From Actinobacteria bacterium IMCC26077 (GTDB lineage: Bacteria > Actinomycetota > Actinomycetes > Nanopelagicales > Nanopelagicaceae): a stretch of DNA of 64,000 nt. Under the pieces are notes generated by a model. That model saw only the letters and a program-made list of their open reading frames with translations. It did no database searches and was not told where the DNA came from. The stretch is from positions 434,001-498,000 of the forward strand of contig CP015606.1 of assembly GCA_002284915.1 (NCBI GenBank), written 5' to 3'. A program made the position numbers and the translations under genes. Shown here piece after piece: positions 47,245-57,831 of the stretch (position 1 is the stretch's first letter; every line of letters begins with the position of its first letter).

Positions 47245-48516
47245 ATGGCCATGACCCGTGAAGATGCCGCACAACTCGATGCTGGGGATGTTCTTGCTCA
47301 CTATAAGAACGAATTCGTGATTGCTGACCCAGATGTCTCATATCTCGATGGGAATTCCTTAGGACGATTACCTAAGCGCACGGTAGAAGTGGTCAATAAA
47401 TTCCTCATTGAGGAGTGGGGCACAAAGGTCGTTGATGGCTGGGGGGATTGGATTGACGAAGCGAGCAAGAGCGGGGATTTGATCGGGCGAAGCGCGCTTG
47501 GAGCAGCCTCTGGTCAGGTTCTGGCGTGCGATACGACATCGGTAAATTTCTACCAACTCTGTAGCGCGGCGATTAAAGCGCGCCCTGGTCGAAAGAAGAT
47601 CATCACTGACTCGGCGAACTTCCCAACCGACAGATATATCTTGCAGGGGCTTGCCAAGGAGCATGGCCTCGAACTTCTGATGATTGATAATGAATCAACC
47701 GGTGTAACAAAACACGAACGGATCACCCCGGAAGTTTTGGCGCCATATCTCGATGAGAGCGTTGCCCTGGTATCGCTACAAGTAATTCAATATCGCTCGG
47801 GCGCTCGTTCAGATATCAGAGCGCTCACCGACTTGGTTCGCGCACATGGCGCGCTGTTGGTGTGGGACGCATCCCATGCTGTTGGTGCGATTGCGATGGA
47901 CTTCGATAAGAGCGGTGTCGACCTTGCCGTGGGTTGCACCTATAAATATGGGAACTCAGGTCCAGGCTCACCTGCGTGGCTATATGTGAGCAAAGCGCGA
48001 CAGCGTGAGTTTCAGGTCCCGATTCAAGGATGGTTCGCCCAGCGAGATCAATTCGCAATGGGGGCGAACTTCGAACGAAGCGAAGAGATGCGCGGTTTCC
48101 AGATTGCAAGCCCATCAATCTTTGGGATGCGAACAATCAATAGCGCCTTTGAAATGATTGAAGAAGCTGGCATCTCAGCAATCGAAGCCAAGGCCCGTGC
48201 GGGAACGTCGATGATGATTGATCTTTTCGACGAGTGGTTAGCGCCCCTTGGTTTTGCACTTAATACTCCGCGAGAAGCGGGGGAACGTGGTGGACATATC
48301 TCGCTCTGGCATGAGCAGGCACAACGGATCAGCGTTGCCCTTCGTCGATTCCAGAGAGTAATTCCTGATTATCGAGTTCCCAATCAGATTCGAGTCGCTA
48401 TCTCACCTCTAGCGACATCATTTGTCGAGGTGTTCGATGGTTTTGCCCGAATTCGCAAGAGCGTGATGGATAAGGAGTACCTACAAATCAGCAATGAAGG
48501 AAATAGGGTGACCTAA
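47245..48516 (+). CDS. kynU: kynureninase
   Basis: A 423-residue PLP enzyme that cuts kynurenine to anthranilate and alanine. [13 protein letters not shown] is the family hallmark; [21 protein letters not shown] and the PLP-lysine loop [19 protein letters not shown] follow; ASPSIFG is near the C-terminus. No tryptophan dioxygenase or formamidase lies nearby, so the rest of the pathway is elsewhere or the enzyme salvages imported kynurenine. Start may be 47245 or the ATG two codons on; no Shine-Dalgarno, a TATAGG box lies 10-15 bases upstream. Confidence 0.92.
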
Positions 48517-49620: not shown

Positions 49621-49649
49621 GGCCCCTGGAAGTATCAGTTCCAGGGGCC
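49621..49649. terminator. hairpin terminator after the DUF4236 gene
   Basis: GGCCCCTGGAA / TTCCAGGGGCC, an 11-bp perfect stem with a 7-base loop, about 55 bases past the stop at 49568. It is followed by TTAACTCTT, only mildly T-rich, so termination may be partial or the hairpin may protect the mRNA end. Confidence 0.6.
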
Positions 49650-49725
49650 TTAACTCTTCGCCGGCGCGCATCTCCTTCGGCATTCACCAAGCAATGTGAG
49701 CTGATCCATACATCACATCCCTGGT

Positions 49726-49745
49726 GTAACTAGTCACCTAGTTAC
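49726..49745. repeat. 8-bp inverted repeat GTAACTAG-N4-CTAGTTAC
   Basis: Perfect dyad with 4-base spacer TCAC in the intergenic region. Suitable for a dimeric regulator or a short hairpin; no association with a start codon within 400 bases. Confidence 0.5.
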
Positions 49746-49812
49746 GCGCAATGGGCGCCTTCTACGGCTCGAACCTTACGTTTGCCAACTCCGCGATGAT
49801 CAGTTGCGTTTT

Positions 49813-49846
49813 ACATAAATAACGCTACTTAAGTAGCTATTTATGT
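49813..49846. repeat. 34-base imperfect palindrome
   Basis: Outer arms ACATAAATA / TATTTATGT (9 bp) enclose a perfect 14-base palindrome GCTACTT-AAGTAGC, with a 2-base AC bulge on the left only. It can form a cruciform or a long RNA hairpin. Confidence 0.65.
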
Positions 49847-50033
49847 AGTTGGTATCCGATCCGACCCCTCATTGATTTCCTTTTGTCTACTCTCAATGAA
49901 GTTGGGTAATTTCTACTCCTGCCGATTTCGGCGCACAAGGGGGGTTCCCACACTTTTTTCTCAAGGAATACTTGAGAGTTTTGGGGGCGAGCCCGCTCAT
50001 TTGCTCGATTTTTTACAAAAACCTTGACAACTG

Positions 50034-50061
50034 CCAAATGGTGTGAGAAAGGGGCGATAAT
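50034..50061 (+). promoter_or_regulatory. promoter of the ABC transporter operon
   Basis: TTGACA (50034-50039), 16-base spacer, GATAAT (50056-50061); a shifted reading gives TAATAG with an 18-base spacer. This is the best sigma-70-type promoter in the window and would start transcription near 50068, inside the operator-like site, leaving a leader of about 130 bases. Confidence 0.7.
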
Positions 50062-50079
50062 AGATTTTCTACAATCTAG
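50061..50079. promoter_or_regulatory. candidate operator 1 (transporter promoter)
   Basis: Contains the dyad TAGATT-N6-AATCTA (50061-50078) and the 12-mer TCTACAATCTAG (50068-50079). The same 12-mer occurs in reverse orientation just upstream of gntR (55271-55282), and with one mismatch at 51539-51550. Overlap with the predicted transcription start fits repression. Confidence 0.55.
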
Positions 50080-50200
50080 TGTCACAGTTACATAAACTTA
50101 TGCCAATTGGTAGTTAATTCATTGTTATTTAAAAGTCACTCAATTACCCTCATTAAAAATCTCGAAAGAGATTGCACACCAATCTGGGGGAAAATTGAAA

Positions 50201-51526
50201 ATGAACCTAACTAGTCGCAAAGTAGTTTCCATTGCGGCTGTTGCAGCTCTTGGTCTCAGTCTTATGACTGTGACTACAAGCTCTGCAGCAGACAAGACAT
50301 GGAGCTGTAAGCCGACTAAGGCAAAGCCAGTAAAGATTCGCGTAATCGAATACTTCGCAGGTCCAGCTCGTACTCCACTCCTCAACGCATTTGCTCGTCA
50401 ATTCGAGTCAACCCGTCCAGGAGTAAAAGTAGAAATCATCTCGCCATCACAGGCAGATTCACCAGCAAAGATCACACAACTTCTACAAGCAAAGGCTGTA
50501 GATATCGTTGAGCCAGCTGGTGCCATCATGGGACAAGCTCTTTCAGCGAATCAACTTGCTGACATCTATCCATACTTCACCAAGACCAAAGCATGGTCTG
50601 GTCTCACCGAGTACTCACAGCTCCAAGCTCAGATCAACAAGGGCAAGGGCAAGATGTACATGGTGCCAAACGGCTACTACGTCAAGGCATCTTTCGTTCG
50701 TACTGAGCCTTTCAAGAACGCAGGTGTCGCAATTCCTGTGACATGGACCGATATCCTCAATGCCAAGAAGATCCAAACCGATAAGTCATACGTCTATTCG
50801 ATGCGTGGCGCTCGTGCTTCGTTCACTCAGGCAATCTTCGTCGTCCGTGCCTATAACGCTCCAGATCTAAATGCTGGTGGTTATTACAACAAGGATGGCA
50901 AGTCCATGTTCAACAATCCAAAGTCGAAGGAAGCGCTCGATCTTCTCATGAAGATCTGGAAAGACGTTTCACCACCAGCATCCGTTTCATGGGGCTACCC
51001 AGAGATGGTGCAGGGCTTCGTCGATGGAACTGCTAACTACTTGATTCAAGATAACGAAGTTATCCAGATCGTCGAAGACAAGTACGCACCATTCGACAGC
51101 GGCAAGTGGATCATGGCGCAGATGCCAAAGGGTCCTGGCGGATATTCAGCTCAAGATGTGAGCGGTGGCGGATGGTCAGTTGCACAAGCATCAAACTGCA
51201 AGAACATTGCCTCTGATTTCCTTGCGTTCATCTCTTCGGATCCACAAGCATCAATCTTTGCTCGCGCCTATGGCGTTGGCCCAATCACTAAGACAGCTGC
51301 GAAGGATCCATTCTTCAAGACTGGCGCATGGGCTATCTACGACAAGATTGGTAAGGATCCTAAGGAAATCAAGCTTGATGGAAGCGATGTAGCAAAGCCT
51401 TGCTATGGCGAATTCTTCACTCAGGCTGATAAAGATATGGCGGCGATGTTCGCTGGCAATCTCAAGACCGAGGATGCGCTCAAGCAATGGGCTGCATACT
51501 GGGATGGACCTAAGTGCAAGTCCTAA
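50201..51526 (+). CDS. ABC transporter extracellular solute-binding protein
   Basis: About 441 residues, family 1 type (carbohydrate-like). Signal peptide VVSIAAVAALGLSLMTVTTSSAA with no clear lipobox, then KIRVIEYFAGPARTPLLNAF, FESTRPGVKVEI, VDIVEPAG and the C-terminal pattern ASDFLAFISSDPQASIF. I take the ATG at 50201; TTG at 50195 is also in frame, and GGGGGA lies 10 or 4 bases away respectively. Codon choice is strongly biased to a few codons (AAG, CTC, ATC), as for a highly expressed protein. It is followed by two permease genes but no ATPase gene. Ligand not recognisable. Confidence 0.9.
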   Translation: MNLTSRKVVSIAAVAALGLSLMTVTTSSAADKTWSCKPTKAKPVKIRVIEYFAGPARTPLLNAFARQFESTRPGVKVEIISPSQADSPAKITQLLQAKAVDIVEPAGAIMGQALSANQLADIYPYFTKTKAWSGLTEYSQLQAQINKGKGKMYMVPNGYYVKASFVRTEPFKNAGVAIPVTWTDILNAKKIQTDKSYVYSMRGARASFTQAIFVVRAYNAPDLNAGGYYNKDGKSMFNNPKSKEALDLLMKIWKDVSPPASVSWGYPEMVQGFVDGTANYLIQDNEVIQIVEDKYAPFDSGKWIMAQMPKGPGGYSAQDVSGGGWSVAQASNCKNIASDFLAFISSDPQASIFARAYGVGPITKTAAKDPFFKTGAWAIYDKIGKDPKEIKLDGSDVAKPCYGEFFTQADKDMAAMFAGNLKTEDALKQWAAYWDGPKCKS

Positions 51527-51538
51527 GGGGCTAGCGCT

Positions 51539-51550
51539 TTTACAATCTAG
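51539..51550. promoter_or_regulatory. candidate operator 2 (within transporter operon)
   Basis: TTTACAATCTAG, 11 of 12 matches to the sites at 50068 and 55271, lies 12 bases after the solute-binding protein stop. It may be an auxiliary operator or mark an internal promoter for the permease genes. Confidence 0.4.
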
Positions 51551-51573
51551 TTAAAGTAATACAGATACAGAGT

Positions 51574-51600
51574 CAGTGGCCGGCGAAATGTCGGCCACTG
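51574..51600 (+). terminator. intercistronic hairpin between binding-protein and permease genes
   Basis: CAGTGGCCG / CGGCCACTG, 9-bp perfect stem with a 9-base loop, followed by CTCTCTGTTA with no long T-run. Such hairpins usually stabilise the upstream message or stop most transcripts, so that more binding protein than permease is made. Confidence 0.6.
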
Positions 51601-51657
51601 CTCTCTGTTACAGGACAATAAGTCAGTCAGTGGACATAAAGCGATAGGGGGTTGACC

Positions 51658-52575
51658 ATGAGTAGCACCTTCCGAATACAAGAGAAGCACAGCGGCAAGA
51701 CGCGGAACATCCTCGCTCCACTCTGGTTCCTCTTACCTGCGCTCATTCTGATCTGCATTTTCATCTATTACCCGGTTGTCCGAACTGCCGGACTCTCATT
51801 TCAGAATTTCAAGTTGTATGCACAAGATGAGATTTATTACGCGGGTTTCCAGAATTTCTCGACGATTTTCAACGATCTCCATTTTAAGCGGATTATTGTC
51901 AACTCAATTATTTGGGTAGTGGTCTCACTATTCTTCCAATTCACTATCGGCTTCGTTCTGGCACTTTATCTCAATACGAAATTTAGATTCTCTGGGCTCT
52001 ACCAAGCAATCATCTTTATCCCATGGGCGCTCTCTGGTTTCTTGATGGGGCTAATCTGGAAATGGATATTTGACGACAACCTCGGAATCATGAATACGAT
52101 TCTTGAAGGAATCGGCCTCATAGATAAACCAATTCCATGGCTATCCAATGACAAATGGGCGATGGCAGCGGTCATCATTGCCAATATCTGGTACGGCGTC
52201 ACATTCTTCGTCATTATGATTTTGGCAGCTCTTCAGGGCGTGCCAAAAGAGATTCTCGAAGCAGCTGAACTCGATGGCGCCTCCTCCCGACAACGCCTCT
52301 TTCTGGTGATAGTTCCCTTTATCAAGAGCACCCTTGTGCTGATCATTTTGTTACGCGTTATTTGGATAACTAACTTCCCAGACCTAATTTTCGGTATGAC
52401 TAGCGGCGGACCCAATGAACAGACGCACATTCTCTCTTCATGGTTGGTACAGAAGATCACATACGATCAAGATTGGGGAGCAGGTTCGGCTCTTGGTATG
52501 TTCATTCTGATCATTCTTTTCATCTTCTCCGTCTTTTACCTGCTCGCCGTCAAAATAGAGGACGGTGACAAATAA
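51658..52575 (+). CDS. ABC transporter permease (MalF/UgpA-like)
   Basis: About 305 residues with six helices. LAPLWFLLPALILICIFIYYP is the first; the EAA loop that contacts the ATPase reads EAAELDGASSRQRLFLVIVPF. ATG at 51658 chosen, six bases after AGGGGG; a TTG two codons earlier is in frame. It pairs with the next permease and the binding protein upstream. Confidence 0.92.
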   Translation: MSSTFRIQEKHSGKTRNILAPLWFLLPALILICIFIYYPVVRTAGLSFQNFKLYAQDEIYYAGFQNFSTIFNDLHFKRIIVNSIIWVVVSLFFQFTIGFVLALYLNTKFRFSGLYQAIIFIPWALSGFLMGLIWKWIFDDNLGIMNTILEGIGLIDKPIPWLSNDKWAMAAVIIANIWYGVTFFVIMILAALQGVPKEILEAAELDGASSRQRLFLVIVPFIKSTLVLIILLRVIWITNFPDLIFGMTSGGPNEQTHILSSWLVQKITYDQDWGAGSALGMFILIILFIFSVFYLLAVKIEDGDK

Positions 52576-52576
52576 G

Positions 52577-53401
52577 ATGCTCAAAGGCTTCAGTAAAGGG
52601 ACCAAAATCTCGGTTTTAACGATTTGGTTTCTCTTCACAATCTTCCCGCTCTACTGGATGTTTCTTACCTCGATTCGCCCAGTGCGCGAGGTGACAAAAC
52701 ATTTCTTCTGGCCAAGAAGTAATTCGACGTTAGAGAGTTACCGAGCGCTATTTCGTGACTATGCTTTTGGTACCTACTTGAGAAATAGCTTCATTGTCGC
52801 GGTGGCTGCATCTGCCCTAGTAATTTTCATTGGAATGCTCGGTGCCTATTCCTTGGCTCGCTATCGCTTTCAAGGCAAATCCCAGGTCATGTTGGTCTTT
52901 CTTGTTACTCAGATGATTCCGGGGCTAATCGCGTTAGCGCCACTCTACTTATTACTTTCTCGCCTAAATCTGCTCAACACATTGATTGCACTCGTACTCT
53001 GCTATCTCGGCGGCATGATCCCTTTTGCTACCTTGATGCTTCGAGGGTTCCTGCAACAGATCCCGCCAGAACTAGATGAGGCAGCGCTGATTGATGGCTG
53101 TAATCGGGTATCTGCGCTATTCCGTGTCATCTTCCCCGTCGCGCTTCCGGGGGTAGCAGCAACTTTCATCTTCTCATTCGTCCAGTGCTGGAACGAACTT
53201 TTCCTCGCCATGGTTCTCATAGACTCGGATGCAAATAAAACCTTCCCAGTGGCCGAACGCTCGTTTATTGGGGCCTACTTCATCGAATGGGGCGGACTTG
53301 CCGCATCAGTAATGATTGGCATCATCCCGACAATGATCATGTTTGGTTTGATGTCGAAATTCATGATCAGTGGCCTCTCGGCAGGAATCGTAAAGGGTTA
53401 A
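52577..53401 (+). CDS. ABC transporter permease (MalG/UgpE-like)
   Basis: About 274 residues with six helices and the EAA loop DEAALIDGCNRVSALFRVIFP. I start at the ATG at 52577, just after the stop of the first permease; a GTG at 52565 in the same frame overlaps it and is possible. No ATPase gene follows, so a shared MsmX/UgpC-like ATPase from elsewhere must energise transport. Confidence 0.92.
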   Translation: MLKGFSKGTKISVLTIWFLFTIFPLYWMFLTSIRPVREVTKHFFWPRSNSTLESYRALFRDYAFGTYLRNSFIVAVAASALVIFIGMLGAYSLARYRFQGKSQVMLVFLVTQMIPGLIALAPLYLLLSRLNLLNTLIALVLCYLGGMIPFATLMLRGFLQQIPPELDEAALIDGCNRVSALFRVIFPVALPGVAATFIFSFVQCWNELFLAMVLIDSDANKTFPVAERSFIGAYFIEWGGLAASVMIGIIPTMIMFGLMSKFMISGLSAGIVKG

Positions 53402-53403
53402 TA

Positions 53404-54549
53404 ATGGAATTTGACCTACAAGAATTGAAATCTGAGTGGAACCTTGACCCCGCGTACCACCAGGTTAACCATGGCTCGTTTGGTGCAGTGCCAATTGTAG
53501 TTCAGCAGGTGCACTCTCAGTGGCGCGAGCGAATTCAGCGTAATCCGGTGAAGTTCTTCGCTCGAGAATTAAAGGATGAGGTAGCAAACGCACGCGCTCA
53601 TGTCGCCCGGTTCCTGGGACAAGAAGGTGATCAAATTGCTCTCATTCGGAATACCACCGAGGGCGCGAGCACGGTTATGCGCGGATTTCCGCTTGAATCT
53701 GGAGATGAAGTAATCGTGCTTAATCAAGAGTACGGCGCGGTCACCAAGGCGGTGGCCCGAGCTTGCGACGCTGCTGGAGCCAAGCTTGTTGAGATCAACG
53801 TTGATTACCTTGACACTGATGAACAAGTTATTTTGAAGATTATCGCGGGCATCACGAAGAAAACTCGGATGCTGGTGATTGACCACATTACGTCAGCAAC
53901 AGCGAGAACTTTTCCAATCTATGAATTGAGCAAGGTTTGCAAGGAGAACTCGATTGTTTATGTAGTGGATGCTTCGCATTCTCCGGGAACTATTGACACT
54001 GATTTGGATCGACTCGATGCAGACTTCTGGTTCGGTAATCTCCACAAATGGGTTTCAGCGCCACTAGGCGTTGGTGTATTGCGGGTAGCGCCCCGTTGGC
54101 AAGAGGTGCTTCGGCCACTTATCGTTTCGTGGCGAGATGATGAACCATATCCATTCCCGTGGGACATGTTAGGCACCGTAGATCCAACATCGTGGTTGAG
54201 TGCACCGAGTGCAATCGAATTCTTCTCAAAGATCGGCTGGGAGCGCGTTCGTAAAGCTAATCATCAAAGAATGATGTATGGCAGAGAATTGGTGATGAAG
54301 GAACTTGGCGTCTCTTTCGAGCAAATTCGAGTTGATTTTCTTCCTCTTGGTGTAGTTCCAATACTCAACATGGCTGGTGGGCGGGATGGCTCGGCTGCGG
54401 TACAGGCAAAGATTGCGGAGGAATATAAAGTAGAAGTTCCAATTTCGTTTATTGCGGATAAGTATTATTTGCGAATCTCTGGGATGCTCTACAACACGCC
54501 ACAGGATTACGAAGCGCTCGCTTTAGCTGTGCGAAAGACTTTCAATTAG
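53404..54549 (+). CDS. class V aminotransferase (isopenicillin N epimerase-like)
   Basis: About 381 residues; ATG at 53404 follows the permease stop by two bases. Fold-type I PLP enzyme of the CefD/NifS branch: HQVNHGSFGAVP near the N-terminus, IRNTTEGASTVM, VVDASHSPGTI (Asp and His at the cofactor) and the PLP-lysine in NLHKWVSAPLGVGVL. True reaction unknown; the family includes epimerases, transaminases and desulfurases. It lies in the transporter operon, so it probably acts on the imported compound, suggesting an amino-bearing substrate. The end overlaps gntR by eight bases. Confidence 0.88.
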   Translation: MEFDLQELKSEWNLDPAYHQVNHGSFGAVPIVVQQVHSQWRERIQRNPVKFFARELKDEVANARAHVARFLGQEGDQIALIRNTTEGASTVMRGFPLESGDEVIVLNQEYGAVTKAVARACDAAGAKLVEINVDYLDTDEQVILKIIAGITKKTRMLVIDHITSATARTFPIYELSKVCKENSIVYVVDASHSPGTIDTDLDRLDADFWFGNLHKWVSAPLGVGVLRVAPRWQEVLRPLIVSWRDDEPYPFPWDMLGTVDPTSWLSAPSAIEFFSKIGWERVRKANHQRMMYGRELVMKELGVSFEQIRVDFLPLGVVPILNMAGGRDGSAAVQAKIAEEYKVEVPISFIADKYYLRISGMLYNTPQDYEALALAVRKTFN

Positions 54550-55258
54550 AGGTTGTTCTTACCTTTTCAATGACGCTAGCCACAATATGCTCTTCGAGCA
54601 GTTGCGAGATTTCGTCGGGATCATTTGATAGCAGGGCATCAAGCAGCTTTTGATGTTCGGCAGCTTTATGTGATGTGTCATCCATCGGGCCCATGCGAGC
54701 GAACTTCATCCGAATGCGCGAGAGGATGCTGTTCCAGAGTTGAAGGGTGTGTTCACTGCCACCCACCTGCATGGTTATCAAATGGAATTTGGCATCTGCC
54801 TCTTCGGCCATCTTTGAATTTCCGGTTTCAGCACCAATCCGCATCGCAGTTATCTGATCATTGAGCGATGCTACTGCGCTAGATGAGAATTTTAAGTTTG
54901 TGTTACAGAGAGCGAATTTCTCTAACAGTAGCCGCATTGGAATGAGTACTTCGGCTATCTCATGATTGGAAACTTCGGCAACGAAGACGCCACGATTGGG
55001 GTAATGGAAGAGCAGACCTTCACTCTCGAGCTCCCGGAGCGCTTCGCGAACCGGCCCTGGGCTGCAGGAGAACTGTTTGCAAATCTCCTCTTGTTTTATT
55101 TGGGTTCCAGGAGGAAGCGTTCCAAAAATAATAGATTCTCGGAGAATGTCTACCAACTGATTACGAGTAGGCGATAGCGATCCAAGGTTCAGGCTAGGCG
55201 CGCTTTTTTTAACGTTTATAGCCCGCTCCTTTCGCTCCTCATGAAGTCTAACTAGCAA
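54542..55258 (-). CDS. GntR-family transcriptional regulator (FCD domain)
   Basis: About 238 residues from a TTG start, the only plausible start codon upstream of the helix-turn-helix. The winged helix (about 28-95) has NQLVDILRESIIFGTLPPGTQ and the SPGPVREALRELESEGLL recognition region; residues 100-235 form a helical FCD ligand domain with MRLLLEKFAL, DAKFHLITMQVG and EHQKLLDALLS. It is convergent with the transporter operon and divergent from the AceE-like gene, hence a candidate local regulator of both. An operator-like 12-mer is 13 bases before its start. Confidence 0.9.
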   Translation of the reverse strand: MLVRLHEERKERAINVKKSAPSLNLGSLSPTRNQLVDILRESIIFGTLPPGTQIKQEEICKQFSCSPGPVREALRELESEGLLFHYPNRGVFVAEVSNHEIAEVLIPMRLLLEKFALCNTNLKFSSSAVASLNDQITAMRIGAETGNSKMAEEADAKFHLITMQVGGSEHTLQLWNSILSRIRMKFARMGPMDDTSHKAAEHQKLLDALLSNDPDEISQLLEEHIVASVIEKVRTTSN

Positions 55259-55270
55259 GGTACCGCTTCG

Positions 55271-55282
55271 CTAGATTGTAGA
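55271..55282. promoter_or_regulatory. candidate operator 3 (upstream of gntR)
   Basis: CTAGATTGTAGA is the exact reverse complement of the 12-mer at 50068-50079. The sequence continues so that TAGATTG occurs twice in tandem (55272-55285). Its position 13-24 bases before the gntR start fits autoregulation. Confidence 0.55.
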
Positions 55283-55313
55283 TTGTTGCAAAAAGATAAA
55301 GCGTGAAAATATG

Positions 55314-55407: not shown

Positions 55408-57831
55408 ATGGCTCACATTCAGGGAGAGCAGCGCCAAGAAGTCGAGAAGCGCTCGACCGCGGGATTACCCCATGATGAAATCAAAACTTTGGAGCGAATC
55501 CAAGAGCGCGCGCTCTGGTTGTCGACGCGAATGATTGATCATGCAAATCGAGAGCGCGAGAATCTCGATGGCTTGAAAGTCGGTGGCCATCAAGCATCGA
55601 GCGCTTCCATGGTCTCTCTAATGACTGCCTTGTATTTCAATTACCTTGATGCTGAAGATCGAGTCAGCGTCAAGCCACACGCGGCGCCTGTTTTTCACTC
55701 AATCCAATACTTACTTGGGAATCTCGATAAGAAATATCTCACTCAACTTCGTACCGCTGGAGGGTTGCAGAGCTACCCATCGCGAACCAAGGATCCCGAT
55801 ATCGTTGATTTCTCTACCGGCTCAGTTGGGTTAGGTGCCGTAGCGCCACTCTTTGCAGCTGCTACCCGCCGTTATGTTGATGCCCACTTTGGACCGCGCC
55901 CACATTCGCGCTTTATCGCAATTATTGGCGATGCCGAGTTGGATGAGGGAAATATCTGGGAAGCATTGGCCGATCCAGCTACTGATGGACTAGGAAATGT
56001 CATGTGGATTGTCGATTTCAATCGCCAATCACTTGACCGCGTGATACCAGGTATCCGAATCTCACAATGGCGCGCGCAATTCGAAGCAGCTGGATGGCAC
56101 GTCCGAGAGATCAAATATGGTTCTCGTCTTGAAGAGATTTTCGCACTCAACGGAAGTGCACCATTTAAAAGCTGGTTCGATGATATTCCTAATGAGCAAT
56201 ACCAATCACTCTTTGGGCTAACACCTGCAGAGGCGAGGGTTCGCTTCCTTGAAGGAGCGCCAGTTGGAACTGATCAGTTCCTCAGCGCGTTCAATGATGA
56301 AGAACTGTTTGAGATATTGACAGACTTAGGTGGACATAATGTGGACTCACTCTTGCAAGCATTTGCCGAATGCGATGCGGTAACAGATCGACCAAGTGTG
56401 GTTTTCGCATACACGATTAAGGGATGGCATTTACCGATAGCAGGAGATCCTCGAAATCATTCTGCTCAGATTTCAAAGGTCCAGATCGATGAGCTGCGAG
56501 CCAGAGTGGGGCTCACTGTTGAGAACGAATGGGAACGGTTTGAGCCTGGCAGCGCTGAAGATGCACTGGTTCGGGCTCGTGGAGTTGCGCTCGCGCGCCC
56601 AGAGCCATCAGTGGATAGCAAGATCACGATTCCTATTACGACTGGAATGAAAGGGACGGGCAGTTCATCGACGCAAGAGATTTTTGGACGGGTATTGAGT
56701 GAGATCAGCCGCGACGAACAGATCCGGCCATATTTAGTTACCACTGCACCCGATGTTGCCACCTCAACAAACCTAGGAGGCTTTATCAATAGGACGGGAG
56801 TCTTCCATCCTGAGCAGCGCCGTCGTTGGAATGAAGATCCAATTCTCAAATGGGCAGAAGGACCTTCTGGCCAACATATCGAGCTTGGCATTAGCGAGAT
56901 GAATCTCTTCAGTCTCTTGGGACAACTTGGGCTTGCCAAGGATCTTCATGATCAGGGATTGATTCCGATCGGAACTGTTTACGATCCATTCGTACTTCGA
57001 GGCCTTGATGCATTTATCTATAGCGTTTATTCGGGGGCTAAGTTCATCGTCACTGGCACTCCATCGGGAATCACGCTTGCGCCCGAAGGTGGTGCACATC
57101 AATCGACGATAACTCCATCAGTTGGCATCGAATTGCCAGGTGTGGTGTTAATCGAACCTGCTTATGGTCAAGCTCTTGATTGGCTCTTCTGCGATGCAGT
57201 TGCGCACGTGGCCGGTAGCAAGGTTGACACCACTCCAGACTTACGCCCCAATGAGTTAGCTTTCTACTTCCGGCTAACCACGAGGTCAATTGATCAGATG
57301 CCATTTGCAAATGCACGAGAGCGACTTGGTGAAGCAACCCTGCGAGCTCAAGTGTTAGCGGGGGCATACCGATTAGTTGATGGAAGAGCAGCGCTTGCAA
57401 AGAGCGATGATTTCGCAGCACCAACAGTCCACCTTGTCGGATGTGGTGCGGTGATGCCTGAAGTACTCGAAGCTGCAGCAGAGTTAGCTAATGAAGGTGT
57501 CATTGCCCATGTGGTGGATGTGACTTCGCCAGGACGGTTGTACGGCAGTTGGCAGCGCACACTTAAACAAGGTATTCGTACTGCGAATACACCGTCGTTC
57601 CCTGGCGCCATGCGTCCGATCTTCTCTGAACGTGCTCCGATAGTTTCCATTCACGATAGCTCCTCCCATGCGCTGGCATGGTTGGGTTCAGCTCTTGGTG
57701 CGCCTCAGGTTGCCATGGGAGTCGATAGTTTTGGTCAGTCCGGAAATATCCCTGACCTTTACAAAATTCATGATCTCGATTCGGGCTCCATCGTCAATGG
57801 CGCGCTCGCTGCTCTGAGCCTTAATAGCTAG
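55408..57831 (+). CDS. transketolase-like / homodimeric pyruvate dehydrogenase E1 (AceE-like) enzyme
   Basis: An 807-residue ThDP enzyme. The cofactor motif is IIGDAELDEGNIWEALADP...VDFNRQSLD, matching the AceE pattern GDGEMDE...NCNLQRLD; a transketolase pyrimidine domain follows (about 410-640, TTAPDVATSTNLGGFINR, HIELGISEMNLFSLLGQLG) and a C-terminal transketolase domain. It is roughly 80-100 residues shorter than usual AceE, has a short N-terminus where AceE binds its E2 partner, and stands alone without E2/E3 genes. It might be a decarboxylase/dehydrogenase for a 2-oxo acid made by the nearby aminotransferase. GGGGAG precedes the ATG. Substrate uncertain. Confidence 0.8.
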   Translation: MAHIQGEQRQEVEKRSTAGLPHDEIKTLERIQERALWLSTRMIDHANRERENLDGLKVGGHQASSASMVSLMTALYFNYLDAEDRVSVKPHAAPVFHSIQYLLGNLDKKYLTQLRTAGGLQSYPSRTKDPDIVDFSTGSVGLGAVAPLFAAATRRYVDAHFGPRPHSRFIAIIGDAELDEGNIWEALADPATDGLGNVMWIVDFNRQSLDRVIPGIRISQWRAQFEAAGWHVREIKYGSRLEEIFALNGSAPFKSWFDDIPNEQYQSLFGLTPAEARVRFLEGAPVGTDQFLSAFNDEELFEILTDLGGHNVDSLLQAFAECDAVTDRPSVVFAYTIKGWHLPIAGDPRNHSAQISKVQIDELRARVGLTVENEWERFEPGSAEDALVRARGVALARPEPSVDSKITIPITTGMKGTGSSSTQEIFGRVLSEISRDEQIRPYLVTTAPDVATSTNLGGFINRTGVFHPEQRRRWNEDPILKWAEGPSGQHIELGISEMNLFSLLGQLGLAKDLHDQGLIPIGTVYDPFVLRGLDAFIYSVYSGAKFIVTGTPSGITLAPEGGAHQSTITPSVGIELPGVVLIEPAYGQALDWLFCDAVAHVAGSKVDTTPDLRPNELAFYFRLTTRSIDQMPFANARERLGEATLRAQVLAGAYRLVDGRAALAKSDDFAAPTVHLVGCGAVMPEVLEAAAELANEGVIAHVVDVTSPGRLYGSWQRTLKQGIRTANTPSFPGAMRPIFSERAPIVSIHDSSSHALAWLGSALGAPQVAMGVDSFGQSGNIPDLYKIHDLDSGSIVNGALAALSLNS

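Follow-up and report, generated by a model that had tools for sequence, protein, structure and literature searches.

A predicted operator and one-locus regulon of an FCD-type GntR regulator at an actinobacterial ABC transporter locus

The FCD-type GntR regulator encoded at 54542-55258 (minus strand) of the window, the 64,000-nucleotide stretch of DNA that was analysed, very probably binds an operator at the promoter of the neighbouring transporter operon and represses this operon and its own gene, and perhaps also the gene for an E1-like enzyme. An earlier note on this DNA had proposed that the regulator acts on the operon and on itself through copies of a 12-base motif. This is still the best reading as far as the regulator is concerned, but the copy at 51539 does not hold as an operator. 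Judged from the sequence, the locus is a real local FCD-GntR regulon, a switch of conventional type whose site and history are slightly unusual.

The operon begins with sbp (50195-51526, plus strand), which encodes an extracellular solute-binding protein (SBP_bac_8, Pfam 2.6e-21), and continues on the same strand with the genes for permease 1 (51652-52575; BPD_transp_1, carbohydrate-uptake type), permease 2 (52565-53401; BPD_transp_1) and a class V aminotransferase-fold PLP enzyme (53404-54549), the nearest solved relatives of which are the Egt2 C-S lyase and PvdN. An ATPase gene is not found among these operon genes (50195-54549), and the transporter probably shares an ATPase whose gene lies elsewhere, a frequent arrangement in carbohydrate-type transporters. 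The gene for the E1/transketolase-like ThDP enzyme (55408-57831, plus strand), a possible third target, is divergent from gntR. Along its entire length, the E1-like protein is similar to E. coli PDH E1 (5e-42), with 210 bits against the aceE cut-off of 860; it is a paralogous ThDP enzyme that is linked to the same transporter in several genera. Two genes upstream of sbp, a kynureninase-like gene is present (47245-48516; 223 bits against a cut-off of 246), which is in place in the congener G024 with 73% identity. Three genomes of the genus share a strongly conserved non-coding stretch from the TPR gene to sbp (49640-49960). Its conservation is above the level of the promoter-adjacent DNA, and it contains a terminator-like hairpin at its beginning as well as the inverted repeat TACATAAATA..TATTTATGTA. 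When this conserved leader (49.6-49.9 kb) is searched for a structured RNA, neither an Rfam family nor a tRNA match is found.

The 12-mer TCTACAATCTAG is located exactly at 50068-50079 (plus strand) and at 55271-55282 (minus strand), and its one-mismatch variant TTTACAATCTAG at 51539-51550 (plus strand), in the spacer that separates sbp from the first permease gene. A re-scan of the window reproduces the coordinates, strands and mismatch count of these three copies as first reported. The TAGATT-N6-AATCTA dyad at the sbp site and the tandem TAGATTG at the gntR site, which had been described together with them, are each present. The complete genome (1,551,612 bases), a single contig of 1.55 Mb, was scanned by pattern search and not by matrix. 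It contains two exact copies of the 12-mer, one before the transporter operon and the other before gntR, and these three places alone match with one mismatch or none. A scan with one mismatch allowed, which the earlier note had suggested, thus finds the 12-mer confined to the locus and not scattered. Places with two mismatches amount to 57 genome-wide and represent background, the total of 60 matches standing against 85 for a reversed control pattern. The numbers of copies expected genome-wide are roughly 0.08-0.16 for exact matches and roughly 4-6 for matches with one mismatch. With only about 0.1 exact copies expected in the genome, a pair of them at a distance of 5.2 kb far exceeds what chance would give, and the claim that this pair is unlikely to have arisen by chance is borne out. 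The one-mismatch copy, taken alone, is unsurprising.

The predicted sbp operator is the imperfect palindrome AGATTTTCTACAATCT at 50062-50077 (plus strand), which has the form AGATT-N6-AATCT and lies over a -10-like TACAAT at 50070-50075. The sequence AGATTATCTATAATCT of related loci aligns with this palindrome without a gap, and therefore the dyad is taken as the operator and the 12-mer at 50068-50079 as its centre and right half. The 12-mer as reported is thus the operator centre plus a single half, and the predicted functional unit is larger. When a matrix constructed only from sites outside the genus is applied to the window, position 50062 ranks first among all positions with 16.6 bits. 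A weaker second operator copy, CGATAATAGATTTTCT at 50055-50070, overlaps it with a 7-base offset and is the second-best match in the window with 13.6 bits; the next unrelated match, below this overlapping copy, scores 9.5 bits. The same matrix ranks the sbp sites first in the congeners G009 and G024 too, and the 7-base overlap of the operator is also detected in G009 (20.8 bits). The sbp operator of G009 (L061:1679-1705) is a nearly perfect 27-base palindrome, CTAGATTATAGA-TTT-TCTATTATCTAG, in which two operator copies overlap with a 7-base offset. In the genome of the window, a search with the full operator pattern AGATTWTCTAYWATCT gives a single exact site and none with one mismatch, and no other site with zero or one mismatch to either the 12-mer or the operator pattern is found that would point to a wider regulon.

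gntR and sbp are both present in three of the five genomes sampled from the genus, and neither is present in the remaining two. In G009 and G024, the gene order is the same as in the window, and protein identities are 91-98% for gntR, sbp and the permeases and 84% for the PLP enzyme. A search of the genome collection for the GntR protein gives, beyond these two known congeners, one poor match. The motif is kept before the orthologous gntR and sbp genes in both congeners, as the earlier note had expected of a functional site, and the two sites are conserved while their flanks are not. The site before sbp is TCTATTATCTAG with an inverted TCTATAATCTAG copy in G009 and TCTACTATCTAG in G024; both sit inside a conserved island, TAGATTTTCTAnnATCTAGTGTCACAGTT, and the DNA immediately upstream of it is unalignable. 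Conservation is strict in the DNA that immediately follows the sbp site, TGTCACAGTTnnATAAACTT. Chance similarity of two short AT-rich stretches might be considered, as the sites are identical only over the 12-mer and a few bases, and the copy at 51539 does look like chance. For the sites before sbp and gntR this explanation is refuted by their conservation in the congeners and by the first rank of the sbp site with the outside matrix, and, with about 0.1 exact copies expected, its probability is negligible. The copy at 51539-51550 is rejected as a third operator, and is probably not an operator at all: it has no counterpart in G009 or G024, and scores -4.4 bits, at rank 109 in the window.

The predicted gntR operator (55271-55288, minus strand) consists of the 12-mer (55271-55282) and the tandem repeat, and contains TACAAT towards gntR. 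It keeps AGATTgTAGAT without a second half-site and scores 3.9 bits with the outside matrix, at rank 13 in the window. The 12-mer is exact in all three genus genomes that bear the locus, two of which also have the complete tandem TAGATTG. We read this site as a putative, weaker autoregulatory site. Its distance from gntR, given earlier as 13 bases, is correct if the gene starts at TTG 55258, but the ATG start of the relatives aligns near 55219, and the start is uncertain between these two positions. The ATG of the congeners is replaced by ATA in the window (55217-55232, minus strand), with AAAGGAG 6 bases before it. An in-frame ATG is not present nearby, and the sole upstream start, TTG 55258, is not preceded by a clear ribosome-binding site. 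The gntR start in the window therefore seems to be either unusual or shifted.

The operator is inherited together with the regulator clade outside the genus. In a tree, the window GntR is placed beside GntRs from other genera of the family with a support of 99/96. The related GntR loci L063-L069 adjoin galactonate-dehydratase-like genes and an amino-acid-type ABC transporter, and their GntRs show 42-50% identity over the alignment with the window GntR. AGATTATCTATAATCT or a near variant is present in the upstream region of all six of these loci for which this region is available (L063, L064, L065, L067, L068 and L069). A perfect AGATTATCTATAATCT is also located just before gntR in L135 (another family, 42% identity), and about 1.2 kb upstream of gntR, past the preceding gene, in L153 and L154 (family f49, 46%). 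Altogether, the related GntRs carrying AGATTATCTATAATCT-type sites come from other genera and families, and show 42-53% identity to the window GntR. When 296 genomes of the family are scanned with AGATWATCTATWATCTGTCA, exact sites are detected in seven genomes and two places with two mismatches are left (G081 and G019). When 201 genomes are searched for the protein, these same seven are the holders of the GntR clade outside the genus, and exact consensus sites are confined to clade holders among the 201 family genomes searched for both. A site of convincing score is not found adjoining gntR in L070-L072 (SRGP helix, 39-40% identity), nor in L042-L060 (about 30% identity), where the best match (L051) reaches 12.2 bits with four mismatches from the clade consensus. 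A further orthologue is not found in the family of G641 at the search threshold. The GntRs of L063-L069, L135, L153 and L154 are the closest relatives outside the genus and have the operator in the same register as the window GntR, but they are associated with another transporter class and enzyme, and their operator is a nearly perfect palindrome, whereas that of the window is degenerate.

The window GntR has the domain composition of the FadR subfamily, an N-terminal GntR winged helix (PF00392, 56.5 bits against a cut-off of 27, 2.1e-15) and a C-terminal FCD domain (PF07729, 58 bits against a cut-off of 24.3, 1.7e-15). Its best NCBIfam match, PhnR of Burkholderia (TIGR03338), stays below the curated cut-off, with 97.8 bits against 271.5. 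D155, H159, H202 and H224 of the FCD domain, which we take to be metal ligands from general knowledge of the family, are invariant in 12 of 12 sequences. That these residues are kept, one Asp and three His as usual for FCD pockets with a metal, suggests a small carboxylate as effector.

The earlier note had suggested that the motif may define a new specificity. This is mostly not the case, and the sites point to a FadR-type site that has drifted to a BioR-like core in the clade, with further drift in the genus. Distant relatives have, just upstream of gntR, CGACTATCGATAATCG (L136), CGATTGTCGACAGTCG or its reverse complement (L137-L139) or CGATTGTCAACAAT (L155), and CGATTGTCGACAGTCG, whose register is the same, represents the classical GT-N2-AC type of FadR site. 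Those that carry G belong with the FadR-subfamily sites; their GT-AC spacing is two bases, as known for GntR, HypR, UxuR and others (PMC4494728). With respect to the TKGT/ACMA boxes of the subfamily, with a GT-AC spacing of 2-3 bases, one half of each window site keeps TTGT/ACAA in the register of 2-base spacing, the clade consensus is TTAT/ATAA, and the full TTGT-N2-ACAG is present in distant relatives. The clade and the FadR-subfamily GntRs (PMC4494728) share the GntR winged helix, the FCD domain and a palindromic operator. They differ in that the G of the GT/AC box is A or variable in the clade, in parallel with a change of Arg to Pro or Ala, and in that the outer AGATT/AATCT extends the site. 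Where Arg occupies the second position of the recognition helix (SRxP), the operator has G; where Pro or Ala stands there (SPGP, SAAP), it has A or a variable base. All 16 tabulated sites fit this rule. The independent changes between these two helix/operator classes are few, perhaps two or three, because many of the 16 sites share ancestry. The second helix residue presumably corresponds to the DNA-contacting Arg of E. coli FadR. An Arg-G contact is the commonest one predicted (PMC4494728). BioR, the alphaproteobacterial biotin repressor, is likewise a FadR-subfamily GntR regulator, with the consensus TTATMKATAA (cited in PMC4494728; PMC4554459). The clade core TTATCTATAA fits this published consensus exactly, and autoregulation is likely in both systems. 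In contrast, compared at the family level, the window locus contains no biotin gene, its sole predicted target operon encoding a carbohydrate-type transporter and a PLP enzyme instead of biotin synthesis or uptake functions, and the core of the window sbp site, TTTTCTACAA, departs from the clade core and the BioR consensus at two positions. A published description of the 16-mer is not found in the literature library searched, and no paper pairing TTATCTATAA with a GntR regulator is present among the matches listed.

At the sbp site, at the gntR site and in the related loci, a TAnnAT oriented towards the regulated gene lies within the operator, and a TTG-type -35 is located 17 bases upstream of this hexamer in four related loci. 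This geometry is that of repression by promoter occlusion. A shared promoter element, either the -10 TACAAT with its surroundings or an element of an alternative sigma factor, would explain, without any operator, that sbp and gntR each have a TACAAT oriented along their transcription. It is highly improbable, however, because two exact copies alone are present in the genome, for which reason a general promoter motif is rejected, and because the palindrome spans both sides of the hexamer, is conserved with the GntR clade across families, and changes along with the recognition helix of the regulator. Some GntR-family regulators activate transcription. Activation by GntR bound at the same site, or action in either sense depending on the effector, would fit the strict conservation of TGTCACAGTTnnATAAACTT, with the operator upstream of the real promoter; this is unlikely, though somewhat less so than a promoter element, because TAnnAT is covered in every locus and the -35 of the four related loci gives the geometry of occlusion. 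A good -35 is not found 17 bases upstream of TACAAT at the promoters of the window itself, so that the promoter position, and hence the mode of action, is provisional, and the true -10 of sbp could instead be the conserved ATAAACTT, which lies downstream. According to the repression model, a GntR dimer would bind AGATTTTCTACAATCT at 50062-50077, cover the TACAAT of the sbp-permease-permease-PLP enzyme operon and block RNA polymerase. The weaker half-palindromic site before gntR would be bound too, resulting in autorepression. This site lies in the divergent region common to the E1-like gene, control of which is plausible because single sites in divergons usually serve both sides (PMC4494728). 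An effector, which is probably one of the small carboxylates of the pathway and would be recognised by the Asp/His3 pocket in the FCD domain, would release the repressor.

At the sbp loci of other genera (sbp 60-75% identity), the genes are arranged in the order sbp, permease, permease, PLP enzyme and E1-like enzyme, and at 11 of 11 readable junctions the E1-like frame either starts where the PLP enzyme gene ends or overlaps its end, without gntR between them. In the genus of the window, gntR separates these two genes and is encoded on the opposite strand. None of the other genera shows a convincing operator ahead of sbp, the best candidate (L123, 9.5 bits) being absent from sister genomes. 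The E1-like gene of G247 (L117:12908-15167) matches with residues 6-586 in one frame and residues 630-806 in another, owing to a frameshift or an assembly error. The simplest history would be that the regulator was inserted, the operon was split, and operators arose at both halves; the alternative is that gntR was lost in the other genera. The fuller account is tentative, and we place it slightly short of an even chance: a regulator of the dehydratase/transporter clade would have been inserted into an established transporter-PLP-E1 operon, have split it, and control both halves by way of operators that arose anew, and the entire clade would have undergone a natural switch of specificity in its FadR-type recognition helix (Arg to Pro or Ala, operator G to A), giving a BioR-like core outside the BioR group.

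For a clade of actinobacterial FCD regulators that is so far uncharacterised, these results predict a one-locus regulon and give an operator consensus of 16 bases, in bacteria that are streamlined. That one helix residue and one operator base change in parallel is testable by simple swaps, and the genera without gntR offer a comparison for how an operon may gain a local regulator.
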